A program made the translations under genes and the position numbers. Below are positions 12,670 through 18,166 of a stretch of 18,166 nucleotides of DNA, one piece after another. The stretch is from Planctomycetaceae bacterium (GTDB taxonomy: Bacteria; Planctomycetota; Planctomycetia; Pirellulales; Pirellulaceae). Within the stretch, counting starts at the first letter, position 1, and each line of letters starts with the position of its first letter. The stretch is taken from assembly GCA_018658605.1 (NCBI GenBank), contig JABHUV010000030.1:1-18166 (forward strand), given 5' to 3'. The notes under the pieces are model-generated. The model searched no databases and was not told the origin of the DNA. It saw only the letters and a program-made list of their open reading frames with translations.

Positions 12670-12831
12670 GAAAAGCGCGATAGGTTCACCAGCTGGGCAA
12701 GTTTTTAGCGATTAACTGGGGATATCGACGGTTATGCCCACAATTTGTGTGCCAAGACGACCATCCACCCCATAACTCGTCGTCGTCGGATTCATAGGAC
12801 CTACCAATGGAAAAGAGTGGAGCTAGCGAGG

Positions 12832-14562
12832 TTATCGCTCGCGTGCCGGAATGACGGTGAAAAAGCCAATCATCATTTCTTCCCAAGTTTGGTCGCCCCA
12901 AGTAACCCATTTGCTTGGTTCTGGATTAGCTGGGTTCTCCTGTGAGTTATCAAAATGTGCTGTACACTCAATCACCGTACCTTTAGGGAGATAAACTGGT
13001 TCGGCAAACCGGTATTCATGTTGCCAGTTGAAATCGTAAAACGGCACGCTGAGGAGCGTCCGCTGCCTGCCATCGGGGAACTTCGCCAGGTATTTGAATT
13101 CTTTGCCACGTACATGCATATGAGGCATCATCGCGAGCAATTCGGAGTCAGAATTGATGGTCCGACTGGCGACTACTTTGTGCCGAGAGGATTCCGGTGG
13201 AATGCGAAACGCAAAATTAAGAGCGGCAACCTGACGAGCAACACGCATTGGAGGTTCTTTACAGAATTTTACAGCGAATTCACTTCGGTCAATCTCTTCC
13301 TTGCCGGTAGGTGTGTAATGCAATTGCCAAACCAGTTCATGTCCAGCTGGTAACCTAATACCTACGCCTTCAGGAAACATCGTTGGTTCCTCCCCCGGTG
13401 CAAATCCTCCGAGGCTTTCAAGGCGGCGAGTTTGATTGCGACTTTTTGGTCTGTGATAAACGATGATGTGGTGGACAGCTTTCCAGTTTCCTGGGCGAGC
13501 CTCGGCTGCCTGAATCCAGACATCTTCTTTGAAGTTTGTTGGGGTAACAAAGTACTGATATGCCACCGTGCCGCTTGCCTGAACTTTATAAGTGCGGGGC
13601 ATTTTGAAGACGTGATCCGGTACTCCAATTTGCCAGCCGTTTATATATTCTGGAGTCGGCGGGATTTTGTCTTCTTCACCTTTAGGCATGCCGGCGTCGA
13701 TCCATGAAGTCAGAAGGGTGATCTCCTTGGGACTCATATGGAGCGCGTTTTCAAATTTGCCAAATCGCGGATCAGCATTCCACGGTGGCATGCGCCGTGT
13801 AAGGACGGTCTCTTTAATCATTTGTGACCAGTTACGTGCATCATCGTACGTTAACAGCGAAAATGGTGCCGCAGTTTTGGGACGATGACAATTCTGACAA
13901 CGCGTTTGGAATAGCTTTGCAATATGGCTCGCATACGTAACCTCATTTGATCCATCAATGTCATGTTTGCGAGTGATCAGGCAACCTTCGGTTTCCGTTA
14001 CACTGACAGCAGGAGTTTCTCCGGCGATTAGTTGTTTCAGAGCTTCTTCCAGATCCGACCGACGAGCTTGTTCTCGTTTGAATCGGTACCCGATTCGGTC
14101 ATCGATGCGACCAACGTAACGAATGTTACGGCGGCGATCAAGAATAAACGCCTCCGGTGTTCGCATGGCTCCAAAGATATCGAGCGATACCTGGTCTTTA
14201 TCCATCAATACAAGCAATCGTAACTTGTATTCCAATGCGTGCTTTTTGATCTCTTCGGGGGAATCGGCCAGATTGGCATTAATGACGGCAAACTTTACGT
14301 TTTGTTTAGAATACTTTTGGCTCAACTCATTCAACTGGGGAATATAGCTGTTTCCGATGGGGCACTCAGTACCGAGAAACACGATAACAAGAAAATCCAC
14401 TTCAGGAAAATCAGCCAAAGCGATTTCTTTGCCCGTGACCGATGGCAAGACAAAATTGGGGATTTGCCGGCCTATTAAATCCGCTCGCGACGTATCTTCA
14501 GCCTGCAAACCGCCCAGCGGAAGGCACGCAAGAATTGCCAGTGAAGCTATCATTGATTTCAT
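12832..14562 (-). CDS. Redoxin / cytochrome c / copper monooxygenase-like fusion protein
   Basis: This is a 576-aa exported protein with signal peptide about 1-21 (cleavage after LQA). A redoxin (AhpC/TSA-type thioredoxin-fold) domain spans about 27-180, with GTECPIGN carrying the single redox Cys67. A short c-type haem segment has CQNCH (222-226) and a downstream Met-rich RRMPPW (about 256). The C-terminal domain (about 310-570) resembles the copper type II ascorbate-dependent (PHM-like) fold: VHHIIVY (363-369), HYTPTG (415-420), HMHVRGKE (481-488) and a final WGDQTWEEMM (555-564) are candidate copper ligands. The combination occurs in planctomycete genomes; electron transfer from haem to copper for oxidation or detoxification is inference. 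The signal peptide supports the start at 14562, though only a weak purine stretch precedes it. Unlike the redoxin at 15206, this one keeps Cys. Confidence 0.85.
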   Translation of the reverse strand: MKSMIASLAILACLPLGGLQAEDTSRADLIGRQIPNFVLPSVTGKEIALADFPEVDFLVIVFLGTECPIGNSYIPQLNELSQKYSKQNVKFAVINANLADSPEEIKKHALEYKLRLLVLMDKDQVSLDIFGAMRTPEAFILDRRRNIRYVGRIDDRIGYRFKREQARRSDLEEALKQLIAGETPAVSVTETEGCLITRKHDIDGSNEVTYASHIAKLFQTRCQNCHRPKTAAPFSLLTYDDARNWSQMIKETVLTRRMPPWNADPRFGKFENALHMSPKEITLLTSWIDAGMPKGEEDKIPPTPEYINGWQIGVPDHVFKMPRTYKVQASGTVAYQYFVTPTNFKEDVWIQAAEARPGNWKAVHHIIVYHRPKSRNQTRRLESLGGFAPGEEPTMFPEGVGIRLPAGHELVWQLHYTPTGKEEIDRSEFAVKFCKEPPMRVARQVAALNFAFRIPPESSRHKVVASRTINSDSELLAMMPHMHVRGKEFKYLAKFPDGRQRTLLSVPFYDFNWQHEYRFAEPVYLPKGTVIECTAHFDNSQENPANPEPSKWVTWGDQTWEEMMIGFFTVIPARER

Positions 14563-14855
14563 GTTAGTGACTTTCGACGGATAGAGGATTGAAAAACAAG
14601 ATCAGCAAATTGGATCATTCGACAATCGACCGCCTGGATTGATGGTCAATCTTCAATTCCACTCTGTCCCGTTCAGACCGGATTTTCATGTTTCATTATT
14701 ACTTGTGATCATGATGAAAATGGCGGCTCCTGAAGACTGAAGCTATATCGTCATTAAACGCCACGTCCTTTCATGAATTTATACAAGTGTTGTACCGCTC
14801 GGTGCAAGACCTATGACGGGGGATATTTCGTCAAACGTGCCCTCTACGAAACCAT

Positions 14856-14956
14856 ATTGGACAAGCTTATCAAATCGCAACACGAAATGCTTGGTTAGGC
14901 GGCGGCTTGTATTAACCGTGCGCTTATAAAAAGGTCCGCTAGTTTCTAATCAGAGC
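14856..14956 (+). repeat. Dispersed repeat family A, copy 3
   Basis: The first block (ACAAGCTTATCAAATCGCAA then CACGAAATGCTTGGTTAGGC) is well kept. The second block (GGTCCGCTAGTTTCTAATCAG) is more decayed, and about 30 nt unrelated to the insert of copy 1 separate them. GTTAGGC fits GTTRRRY exactly, but I found no convincing complementary arm upstream. Confidence 0.7.
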
Positions 14957-15094
14957 ACCACCCTGCTCATGCGTTGGCAGTTCCGTGACTACGGCTTCAA
15001 GAAACTCGGAGCGGTAACTCTGAGCCGCACTGTCGGCCCCATGATTGAATGGCACCGTGATTTTTTGGCCAAGACAGAAGAGCAACTGGTATGA
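14948..15094 (+). pseudogene. Unidentified coding remnant (C-terminal fragment)
   Basis: A frame ending at TGA 15092-15094 reads like real protein (RWQFRDYGFKKLGAVTLSRT, then GPMIEWHRDFLAKTEEQL). It has no ribosome binding site at its only early ATG (14969). Its upstream end runs into repeat A copy 3 without a start. It looks like the last roughly 48 codons of a gene whose 5' part is missing. I do not recognise the parent family. Confidence 0.4.
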
Positions 15095-15205
15095 GAATAA
15101 ATGTAATTTTTAGGGATAATTGCGTGTTGTGTCTGCTAAAATAGGCGCACAGGAACTAGCCATAAATTTAGCAAATGTAATATTGAACATTCATTGGATT
15201 TCCAC

Positions 15206-15964
15206 ATGAACAACTCCATGCGAAAACTCGTCTGCTGCTTAACTGCGGTGGTTCTTCTCGTCACAACCTCCGGATTTTATTCTTATGTTGCCGGGCAAGA
15301 ACCGAGAGTTGGATTAGAGGTCGGGAACCTGGCACCGGAGATCCAGGGAGAAGATCTCGATGGTGTGAAGTTCAAGCTGAGTGATTACCGTGGGAAAGTT
15401 GTAGTACTGGACTTCTGGGGCGATTGGTGACCCCCCTGCCGGGCCATGTACCCACACGAGCGGTCGCTCGTTGCAAAAATGAAAAATGAGCCTTTTGCCC
15501 TGATCGGTATCAACAGTGACAGGGACAAGGCCAAACTCAAACAACGAATGAAGGCAGAGAATATCACATGGCGCAGTTTTTGGAATGGTCCCCAGGGTAC
15601 GAGTGGGCCGATTTCGAAAGCCTGGGGTGTACGTGGATGGCCGACGATTTATGTCCTGGATGACAAGGGTGTCATCCGGTATAAGAATGTCCGGGGTTCG
15701 GCGATTGACAAGGCAGTCGAAACCCTGGTTGCCAAGGTCGAGGGAGGTTCGCCCGGGTCCACACCGTCCGCTAAGCTGCACGAGTTCACCGACAGCACGG
15801 GCAAGTTCAAAATCAAGGCCCGATTCGTCGAGTTCAACGAAGGGAAAGCCGTCTTAGAAAAAGAAGATGGCGATGTTCTCAAAGTCGTAATGACCAAGCT
15901 CAGCAAGGAAGACCAGAAGTACATTCAGGAACTCTTGAGAAGCCGACTGCGGCTTCGACCCTAG
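15206..15964 (+). CDS. Redoxin/thioredoxin-like protein with SHD1 domain; candidate selenoprotein (UxxC)
   Basis: This is a thiol-disulfide oxidoreductase of the TlpA/redoxin group, predicted exported (signal peptide about residues 1-30, from the ATG at 15206 or 15218). The thioredoxin-fold domain starts at VGNLAPEIQGEDLDG, with VVVLDFWGDW, then an in-frame TGA at 15428-15430, then PPCRAMYPHE. Homologues have Cys at the TGA, giving WCxxC; read as selenocysteine it is W-U75-P-P-C78. The fold continues in the same frame (FALIGINSD, GVRGWPTIYVLDDKGVIRYK with the cis-Pro loop). It ends with a small SHD1 domain (KFKIKARFVEFNEGKAVLEK to KLSKEDQKYIQ), common in planctomycetes. Total is 252 residues. 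There is no ribosome binding site at the ATG at 15446, so separate translation of the second half is unlikely. A nonsense mutation is the main alternative. GGA lies about 6 nt before 15206. Confidence 0.72.
15431..15471 (+). promoter_or_regulatory. Candidate bacterial SECIS element
   Basis: The hairpin ACGAGC (15456-15461), loop GGTC (15462-15465), GCTCGT (15466-15471) is a perfect 6-bp stem lying inside the coding frame. The loop begins 31 nt after the TGA and starts with G, and GGUC also occurs in the loop of the Escherichia coli fdhF SECIS. Bacterial SECIS elements lie just downstream of the Sec codon with a short stem and a G in the first loop positions. Such short hairpins also occur by chance, so the evidence is the combination with the UxxC context. 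Confidence 0.55.
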
Positions 15965-16066: not shown

Positions 16067-18166
16067 TCAAAGAGGACTAGGGAACTGATCCAACTCACGG
16101 ATCAACCGAAACCCATCGTTGAGATTATGGCTACCAGCCTCGTTCCTACCGCGGAAAGCGGAACGTGCGTCACGCGCGGAACCACCCCACGACCCACCCC
16201 GTAAAACACGCAAAGAGCCCCGCGTTTGCCCCCTTGGGTCATTTTCGATCGACTGTTCGTAGTAATCCTCTCCATAATAATCGAGGCACCACTCCCAAAC
16301 ATTGCCGTGCATATCGTACAGCCCAAACGCGTTGGATTTTTTTAGTTTAACCTGGTGAGCGTACGGCTCACCTATATCAACGGTGTTTTCGCTGTACCAA
16401 GCGTAATCGCTAAGTTCATTTACATCGTTGCCAAAGTTCCAAGTTGTCCTAGTTCCTGCGCGGCAGGCGTACTCCCATTCCGCCTCGGTGGGTAAGCGAT
16501 ATATCTTACTTTCTTTCTCGCTAAGTTTTGCACAAAATGCCAAGGCATCGCCCCTGTTTACCCACGTCGCTGGGTAGTTAGCACCTTCTTTGACATTGCC
16601 TTTCCCCTTCCATGGTTCTGTGTCCATCAAGGCCTTCCACTGCCCTTGAGTCACTTCGGTCGTTTGCATATAGAATGTCCTACTGATCGTGACCTTGTGT
16701 TGTTGTTCATCAACTTGGCGGTTCTTCTCCGTTTTTGGCGAACCCATTATGAAGCTTCCAACAGGGATATTGTTAAAGGTCATGTGGAGAGTGTTAGTTA
16801 TTGGATCGCCAGCGAGGATTGCAGCTTTTTCGGCAGCGACCTGCATCCGCAATCCATCGCTATTACTGGGGTCTATAGCAAGCGCTGCTTTCCAATCACC
16901 TTTAGCTAAGGCAGCGGTAACTACTGTGTCCCTCAATCGCAATCCCTCCCGATTATAAGGATCTAAATCTAGCGCTGTTTTCCAATCACCCTTAGCTAAG
17001 GCAGCGGTAACTGCAGCGGTTTTTGCCGCTGCAGCCTTCTCTGCTGCGACCTGCATCCGCAACGCATCGCTATTATTGGGGTCTATACCAAGCACTGCTT
17101 TCCAATCACCCTTAGCTAAGAAAAAAATAACTGCAGCGTCCTTTTCGGCTGCAGCCTTCATCCGCAATCCCGCACTATTATCGGGGTCTAAGATAAGCAC
17201 TGCTTTCCAATCACCCTCATCTAATGCAGCAGTAACTGCAGCAGCCTTTTCCGCAGCAGCCTTCATCCGCAATCCCGCACTATTGTCGGGTTCTAAGGTA
17301 AGCACTGCATCCCAATCCCCTTTAGCTAAGGCAGCAGTAACTGCAGCTGCCTTTTCGGCAGCAGCCTGCATCTGCTTTCCCTTGCTATGATTTGGATCTA
17401 AAGCAAGTACTTGTTTCCAGTCCCCCTTAGCCAAGGCAGCAGCAATTGCAGCGGCCTTTTCGGCAGCGGCCTGCATCCGCAATCCATCGCTGTTGTTGGG
17501 GTCTATCTCTAATACCGCTTCCCAGTCCCGATTTGCAATCGCAGTTTTAACGGCCTTTGCGTCATTAATATTTTTTATGACCGCGCCTATGATTAAAACC
17601 ACTACGACACACGCCGCTGCAATTCCAAGTCCGGCTAACTGCTTGTTACGAATAAATACGGATTCTTTATCCTTAGCTTTCTCAAGCATTTGTTGAATCT
17701 GGGGATCCTGAATACCAGCGTTCGCAATCCCGCTTAGATACAGATTAATACTTTTAATCGCAATTCGATATTTTTTATTGGACAAGGCTACTGGCACAGT
17801 ACTTAACACGCCCTGACGATGCATCGACAACTGATGTGCCTGTTGAATAAGGCTTGTCGTAGTGACCGTCCGATTTTCCGGTGCAATCGTGTCGAGTATC
17901 TGCACTACCTCAGTAAATTGCAACTGCTGCATATGCTGCTGTGCCTGCGAGATAATTTGTTGATTGCGGGCATCAATCTGTGCTTCGCGAGCGATAAGGT
18001 CCTGTCTTAACGTCACGAAGTCGCTCTGATCAGCCTTCAGAGTTAAACACTCCTCAACAACAGGCAATAGATCCTTAAGTTGATCATTACTCACAGCCGT
18101 TGTGATTCTGTCACGCAGGTGATTTAACCGATTAAGTGAATCACTTGCTTTGGTTTTTAGCTCCAA
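16067..18166 (-). CDS. Membrane protein with tandem repeats and FGE-like (SUMF1/EgtB/PvdO) C-terminal domain, N-terminus beyond window
   Basis: At least 699 aa, open at the window edge. The visible N-terminal part (1-175) is helical and polar with Gln-rich segments, like linkers in large planctomycete signalling proteins; a protein kinase domain further upstream is plausible but unseen. A transmembrane helix (about 178-198) follows, then seven repeats (204-450) and an FGE-sulfatase domain (455-695). Domain motifs are VGSFIMGSP, FYMQTTEVTQGQW, YRLPTEAEWEYACRAG (556-571), GLYDMHGNVWEWC (615-627) and LRVLRGGSWGG (652-662). At the place where true formylglycine-generating enzymes have their two catalytic Cys (just after RGGS), this protein has Gly, Ser, Asp and Ala. 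It is unlikely to make formylglycine and more probably has another, perhaps binding, role. The C-terminal domain lies on the opposite membrane side from the N-terminal part. Confidence 0.85.
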   Translation of the reverse strand: MELKTKASDSLNRLNHLRDRITTAVSNDQLKDLLPVVEECLTLKADQSDFVTLRQDLIAREAQIDARNQQIISQAQQHMQQLQFTEVVQILDTIAPENRTVTTTSLIQQAHQLSMHRQGVLSTVPVALSNKKYRIAIKSINLYLSGIANAGIQDPQIQQMLEKAKDKESVFIRNKQLAGLGIAAACVVVVLIIGAVIKNINDAKAVKTAIANRDWEAVLEIDPNNSDGLRMQAAAEKAAAIAAALAKGDWKQVLALDPNHSKGKQMQAAAEKAAAVTAALAKGDWDAVLTLEPDNSAGLRMKAAAEKAAAVTAALDEGDWKAVLILDPDNSAGLRMKAAAEKDAAVIFFLAKGDWKAVLGIDPNNSDALRMQVAAEKAAAAKTAAVTAALAKGDWKTALDLDPYNREGLRLRDTVVTAALAKGDWKAALAIDPSNSDGLRMQVAAEKAAILAGDPITNTLHMTFNNIPVGSFIMGSPKTEKNRQVDEQQHKVTISRTFYMQTTEVTQGQWKALMDTEPWKGKGNVKEGANYPATWVNRGDALAFCAKLSEKESKIYRLPTEAEWEYACRAGTRTTWNFGNDVNELSDYAWYSENTVDIGEPYAHQVKLKKSNAFGLYDMHGNVWEWCLDYYGEDYYEQSIENDPRGQTRGSLRVLRGGSWGGSARDARSAFRGRNEAGSHNLNDGFRLIRELDQFPSPL
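16817..17557 (-). repeat. Seven tandem coding repeats (TPR-like, ALAKGDWKAVL unit)
   Basis: Residues 204-450 of the FGE-like protein form seven units. Each has the pattern TAALAKGDWKAVLxLDPxNS followed by xGLRMQAAAEKAAA. Units are mostly about 35 residues (roughly 105 nt); one is lengthened (AAAAKTA) and the sixth is shortened (LRLRDT in place of the full helix). The A-x-G-W pair of helices recalls degenerate TPR units. Near-identical neighbouring units point to recent expansion by recombination. Confidence 0.85.

Follow-up and report, generated by a model that had tools for sequence, protein, structure and literature searches.

A redoxin-like gene on the plus strand of the planctomycete DNA analysed here (a stretch of 18,166 nucleotides, called the window below) carries a TGA codon inside its reading frame, at the active site of the encoded protein. 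This raises the question of whether the TGA terminates translation or encodes selenocysteine (Sec). The analysis below indicates that the gene very probably uses the in-frame TGA and a conserved RNA hairpin to place Sec in the active site, and we have very little doubt about the joint assignment of Sec at the TGA and of the protein to the UxxC redoxins.

Reading frame and active-site codon

As originally predicted, the frame 15206..15964 is interrupted by a single internal stop, the TGA of codon 75 (15428..15430), and ends with TAG. The translation reads VVVLDFWGDW up to the TGA and PPCRAMYPHERSL after it, which gives the motif FWGDW-U-PPC. Read through, the coding sequence specifies a predicted selenoprotein of 252 residues with a signal-like N terminus, a redoxin domain and an SHD1 domain, as judged by translation, Pfam and AlphaFold2. 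The mechanical list of open reading frames divides the gene into 15194-15430 and 15446-15964, the same two ORFs that a gene caller had been expected to report. Codon alignment with relatives and motif counts assign the TGA to the first active-site position; Cys homologues align TGC or TGT at this codon, in agreement with the proposal that it stands for the first active-site cysteine. The resolving cysteine of the UPPC motif is residue 78 (15437..15439), which is Cys in all 37 TGA contexts described below, as the pattern used to collect them demanded.

The near relative with the closest locus is Planctomycetaceae bacterium UWMA-0045 (genome G001), which matches the window at 93% over 12828-14902 and at 95% over 15272-15800, the remaining matches being shorter (69-91%). 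The locus itself, L001, contains an assembly gap, and another TGA lies upstream of its redoxin. In the comparison of L001 with the window, the 41 codons before the TGA contain five synonymous and two non-synonymous codon differences, and the 118 codons after it contain ten and four, respectively. Selection is purifying both upstream and downstream of the TGA, with dN/dS of about 0.10 on each side in a comparison that hardly covers SHD1.

Domain organization and predicted function

Residues 1-31 (15206..15298) form a possible signal peptide, recognized by eye, following the usual rule, from a charged start, a hydrophobic stretch and VAG-Q; pLDDT is below 50 for residues 1-33. They are followed by a thioredoxin-fold AhpC-TSA/Redoxin domain (residues 39-159, 15320..15682) with PDB relatives of the DsbE/TlpA/ResA type, and by SHD1 (SLA1 homology domain 1; residues 188-245, 15767..15940), modelled as strands with an end helix. 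With Cys written for Sec, residues 39-159 match AhpC-TSA (PF00578) with an E-value of 6.8e-21 (74.9 bits, cut-off 26), and Redoxin (PF08534) is matched with 2.6e-20 (73.2 bits, cut-off 26.6); residues 188-245 match SHD1 (PF03983) with 8.1e-14 (51.6 bits, cut-off 23.7). The thioredoxin fold and the C-terminal SHD1 that had been read downstream of the TGA are therefore both recovered above the Pfam cut-offs in the read-through protein. Pro146 in GWPTIY (15641..15643), invariant in the 44-row alignment A3, is presumably the cis-Pro of the thioredoxin fold. The AlphaFold2 model, computed from a 44-row alignment with Cys for Sec, has a mean pLDDT of 81.9 (in ten-residue blocks, 91-97 over residues 41-170 and 88-93 over 191-240) and a pTM of 0.60, because of which the mutual placement of the domains is uncertain.

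The best PDB matches found by phmmer are DsbE/TlpA/ResA-like, and the best Foldseek match is the ResA-like structure 4nmu (TM 0.88 by target). All NCBIfam scores shown lie under the curated cut-offs: the top match is the ResA subfamily (NF002854) with 78.6 versus 170 bits, followed by TlpA (NF047696) with 54.7 versus 230 bits and DsbE (TIGR00385) with 46.2 versus 123.15 bits. Judged by sequence, the protein appears to resemble ResA without being filed as ResA. ResA, TlpA and DsbE are among its best sequence and fold relatives in PDB (3gl3, 1jfu, 4nmu and 1st9), but it differs from them in scores far below the family cut-offs, in Sec replacing the first Cys and in the added SHD1.

The function that fits best would be that of an exported ResA/TlpA-like thiol-disulfide oxidoreductase, and any assignment of its substrate has an even chance at best of being right. 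Judging from its N terminus, the 252-residue product would be exported, and the model predicts that it folds as a ResA/TlpA-like thioredoxin domain followed by a C-terminal SHD1. By analogy with the family, Sec75 would attack and Cys78 would resolve via a selenenylsulfide, the enzyme acting outside the cytoplasm to reduce or isomerize disulfides or to reduce peroxides. We tentatively suggest that SHD1 probably serves to attach the enzyme to a surface or a partner.

The TGA codon in related genomes

The protein search returned 2877 homologues. Among the best 120 of them, 29 begin at MYPHER or MYAHER, that is, at the Met following the TGA in the window; they are known as protein entries rather than from the DNA behind them. 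Since such starts are what a shared TGA would give, the interrupted frame is not due to chance. Ordinary annotation halves these genes, at least 29 of the best 120 homologues being database fragments that start after the site.

Five loci were identified in genome DNA. At the aligned codon, TGA stands in three of them (L001, L002 and L003) and TGT in L004, while L005 matches within SHD1 only. Including the window, the same TGA was found in 37 distinct DNA contexts, collected with a pattern that leaves out UxxU and UxRC variants, and in all of them the frame remains open for more than 100 codons past the TGA. In 98 genomes of the class to which G001 belongs, 30 fetched loci carry TGA or TGC/TGT at the aligned codon with one exception, a weak second match in L018 with GCC. 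The pattern DFWG-x-W-TGA-xx-C occurs at 34 places in 22 of the 397 sampled genomes of this class and nowhere in the reversed control; with TAA or TAG substituted for TGA, it occurs in none of the 397. The version with TGC or TGT was found at five places in three of the 98 genomes; all five are without the MYPHERSL stretch and so seem to belong to a separate branch of the family. The tabulation of TGA versus Cys at residue 75, which had been proposed as a check, thus favours selenocysteine. The original reading of the TGA as Sec is supported by this table, by the lack of TAA and TAG in the 397 genomes and by the machinery of the relatives (see below).

The highest-ranked Cys homologue among the best 120, P0012, is 81% identical over 58% of the query, with WCPPC at the active site and no SHD1. 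P0001, 94% identical over 75% of the query, has GxxC at the site and Ala in place of the Ser whose codon overlaps the hairpin loop described in the next section (GPTCRAMYPHERAL). Its sequence suggests that Sec was likely lost together with the hairpin, or else that a TGA was printed as Gly under another code.

A SECIS-type hairpin downstream of the TGA

A feature absent from the original prediction is a bacterial SECIS-type hairpin at 15455..15472 on the plus strand. Its stem of 6 bp (15456-15461 with 15466-15471) encloses the loop GGUC (15462-15465), 31 nt after the UGA; a seventh, outermost pair is possible in 29 of the 37 contexts and is unpaired in the other eight, among them the window. 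The rule given in the Figure 2 legend of PMC13188914 describes a bSECIS as a loop of 3-9 nt on a stem of 4-16 bp, with G in the first two positions of the loop, a distance of 16-37 nt to the UGA and an MFE of at most -7.5. The hairpin of the window fits the rule as worded in that legend (loop GGUC, 6 bp, 31 nt, -7.9) and so has the published form of a bSECIS downstream of a TGA, with thin covariation; its six pairs give -7.9 to -8.5 kcal/mol, near the limit. It differs from the general consensus in that the hairpins found here are very uniform, with the GGUC loop and the 31-nt spacing identical in 37 of 37 contexts, and all belong to one protein family. The energy limit of -7.5 kcal/mol is reached by 36 of the 37 TGA contexts (L073 is the exception) versus one of 26 Cys homologues, and that single homologue has a different loop and a spacing of 35 nt.

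The codons that carry the hairpin are nearly fixed. Over the 37 contexts, the HERS codons are CAC, CGG and TCG throughout and GAG in 36, while the third base varies in the Pro, Gly and Ala codons of the stretch from the TGA to the hairpin. In particular, all 37 contexts use TCG for the Ser whose codon overlaps the loop, whereas TCG accounts for 12 of the 86 Ser codons in neighbouring sequence. Glu or Lys occupies the corresponding position in 22 of the 26 Cys genome loci, and Ser, encoded as TCT, in one. Ser is found at this position of HERSL in 20 of the 47 readable database Cys forms among the best 120 listed; HERSL is therefore also conserved as protein, which leaves the codon choice as the sole argument for the RNA. 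Conservation of HERSL in the protein accordingly does not appear to be due to RNA alone.

Changes within the stem comprise one two-sided replacement (G-C to C-G in L051) and six G-U variants, with five of the seven pairs invariant, and the covariation is thin, each of the five observed stem measures being reached by 25 of 500 shuffles. In the sequences compared, the fixed codons and the link with the TGA appear to weigh more for the hairpin than does covariation. Sought alone, the hairpin sequence occurs at 18 places in 11 of the 98 genomes (two places in the reversed control), and 17 of the 18 have a TGA exactly 27 nt upstream; the odd one, in G037, is not readable as a redoxin. With 17 of 18 places in the 98 genomes identified as TGA redoxins, the signature TGA, 24 nt, CACGAGCGGTCGCTYGT is a ready search tool. 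Rfam and ARAGORN gave no match on the window sequence, which we do not count against a SECIS. The case is suited to the study of an RNA signal and a protein sequence that constrain each other, the Cys homologues providing a natural comparison.

Two related redoxins, L124 (G083:C88) and L129 (G017:C68), have two TGAs arranged as U-x-x-U and then the same hairpin, at distances of 31 and 22 nt from the first and the second UGA, respectively, so that a single SECIS might act on both. The UxxU form is listed for Prx-like selenoproteins in PMC13188914 and PMC2398784.

Selenocysteine machinery in relatives

The original prediction called for a genome search for selA, selB, selD and tRNA-Sec. The search was made in relatives of the window organism, of which G001 is the nearest, and the machinery is present there, in the closest genome found, as well as in most of the other TGA carriers examined. 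G001 contains a tRNA-Sec with the UCA anticodon (63.9 bits), called by Rfam alone and not by ARAGORN, selA (540.5 bits) and selD (350.4 bits); selB is split between the ends of two contigs, C169 and C81, with each piece below the cut-off. The selD gene of G001 has an in-frame TGA of its own, in CAG-U-AGK (L113, G001:C185:2428-3348), and one TGA inside selD is seen in 13 of the 23 genomes with selD over the cut-off.

The Rfam tRNA-Sec cut-off is passed by 61 of the 98 genomes and taken alone is unspecific, since other long-armed tRNAs apparently reach it as well. Forty-five genomes score at least 62 bits, and the next score below is 53.7 bits; the value of 62 bits, chosen after this gap had been seen, was used as the bar for a strong tRNA-Sec. 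Such a tRNA is present in 21 of the 22 pattern-positive genomes, in 14 of which ARAGORN also calls it. The exception, G377, has the TGA redoxin motif, selA and selD, and perhaps an assembly gap where the tRNA would be. Within the 98-genome sample, the 45 genomes with a strong tRNA-Sec include every one of the 11 that have the TGA form (seven identified by the motif and four more by the hairpin sequence); the hypergeometric probability of 9e-5 ignores kinship, and the true figure is weaker. A strong tRNA-Sec is also found in 13 of the 23 genomes whose best fetched match has Cys, so the machinery alone does not imply this gene.

Among the TGA carriers tested, selA is over the cut-off in 24 of 25 (in G006 it is in two pieces), selD in 23 of 25 (not in G003 and G313) and selB in eight of nine; all 22 pattern-positive genomes have selA. 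Of the controls, picked for being without a strong tRNA-Sec, none of four (G066, G041, G037 and G045) has selA or selD over the cut-off, and neither of the two used for selB (G066 and G041, chosen from site codon matches and tRNA-Sec scores together) has selB. In G017:C68 and G075:C5, no more than about 2.3 kb separates a TGA redoxin gene from tRNA-Sec, and in G047:C1 such a gene directly adjoins selA.

From the observed UGA, the hairpin and the machinery genes of the relatives we infer SelB-dependent decoding, in which SelB with Sec-tRNA(Sec) would bind the mRNA hairpin, with its loop 31 nt downstream, and UGA codon 75 would be decoded as selenocysteine.

Alternative explanations

Could the TGA be a nonsense change in a pseudogene, or a misread TGC? 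A difference of one letter from TGC or TGT would do. However, L001, from the separately assembled genome of a near relative, and 35 other distinct contexts have the same TGA, purifying selection is equally strong on its two sides, and TAA or TAG stands at the motif in none of 397 genomes, all of which makes a pseudogene or an error very improbable. Still less credible is a reassigned TGA that specifies Trp or Gly, as it does in NCBI codes 4 and 25. The Gly at the site of P0001 is what a code-25 translation of TGA would print, but this protein also has Ala for the hairpin-overlapping Ser, as a real loss of Sec would allow; moreover, four of the 11 window ORFs checked terminate in TGA, one of them being the FGE-sulfatase gene at 16067-18166, in which the complete Pfam domain immediately precedes the TGA, and the hairpin and the G001 tRNA-Sec with its UCA anticodon point to Sec. 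The mechanical ORF list contains two proteins instead, a truncated one with the signal and half of the redoxin and another that starts from ATG 15446, and 29 of the best 120 listed homologues match the second half. This reading is about as improbable as a pseudogene, since the split falls within the active-site motif of a single fold, the joined chain is modelled with confidence across this point, and the hairpin is placed where a SECIS is expected.

With Sec at the TGA as the preferred reading, one alternative concerns function only, namely that the selenoprotein, like peroxiredoxins, chiefly reduces peroxide and does not exchange disulfides. The best Pfam match, AhpC-TSA, is consistent with this, as is the Prx-like UxxC selenoprotein family with PF00578 that appears in PMC13188914. 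On the other side, the best PDB matches by sequence and fold are thiol-disulfide proteins of the DsbE/TlpA/ResA type, and the motif is UxxC, as in thioredoxins, rather than the TxxU of Sec peroxiredoxins given in PMC1088965. We regard a mainly peroxide-reducing role as unlikely, though by no means negligible, and prefer a thiol-disulfide oxidoreductase.

Fusion with SHD1 and relation to known selenoproteins

Among the best 120 homologues, SHD1 is found in 29, comprising 25 fragments that start after the site and P0001, P0019, P0020 and P0048; only P0001 of these contains the active site, as GxxC. No Cys form of the redoxin-SHD1 fusion was found among the best 120 of the 2877 homologues. In the 37 TGA read-through frames, an HMM made here detects SHD1 only in the window and L001, and most of the other frames have a long N-terminal part ahead of the redoxin. 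In L001 the frame past the TGA continues through SHD1 into an FGE-sulfatase domain (L001:5145-6443, Pfam). This stretch is identical at 427 of 432 residues to P0016, which begins after the site; in the window, the FGE-sulfatase is a separate neighbouring gene (16067-18166, minus strand). The fusion is thus unusual, as the original prediction held, but it is not unique, being shared with L001 and with the 25 SHD1-bearing database proteins that start after the site.

UxxC redoxins are a known class of selenoproteins. PMC13188914 and PMC9312934 list UxxC Prx-like and redoxin-family selenoproteins, PMC1088965 reports UxxC Prx-like genes in the Sargasso Sea set, and PMC4807772 reports selenoproteins of two planctomycete isolates. 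By family description, the window protein is similar to the Prx-like thiol:disulfide oxidoreductase selenoproteins (PF00578, UxxC/UxxU) in Pfam family and UxxC placement, and to the redoxin family selenoproteins (PF08534, UxxC; also listed in PMC13188914) in its Redoxin match (E 2.6e-20) and UxxC; it differs from both in the SHD1 tail. The texts of PMC13188914 and PMC9312934 contain no match for "planctomycet", nor does that of PMC13188914 contain one for SHD1, a domain noted in extracellular bacterial proteins in PMC5906684. A literature search for selenoprotein together with SHD1, outside which most subscription journals lie, returned one unrelated paper and no description of a fusion. What appears to be new here is the SHD1 fusion, undescribed in the literature searched.

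A tentative scenario, to which we give clearly less than even odds, is that one planctomycete lineage has the redoxin-SHD1 fusion in selenoprotein form alone, a Cys form being absent, and that its SECIS is frozen in the HERSL codons. The RNA signal would then fix the codon choice, and perhaps the Ser as well, across the TGA group, and the stretch would be released on loss of Sec, as P0001 may show.

Neighbouring sequences

Ahead of the selenoprotein gene, the window contains an open stretch at 14957-15094 (TLLMRWQFRDYGFKKLGAVTLSRTVGPMIEWHRDFLAKTEEQLV) that ends in a stop and resembles a remnant or the final part of a different gene. A second gene for a redoxin-domain protein, which has the motif FLGTECPIG and a long C-terminal part, lies on the minus strand (12832-14562) and diverges from the selenoprotein gene.
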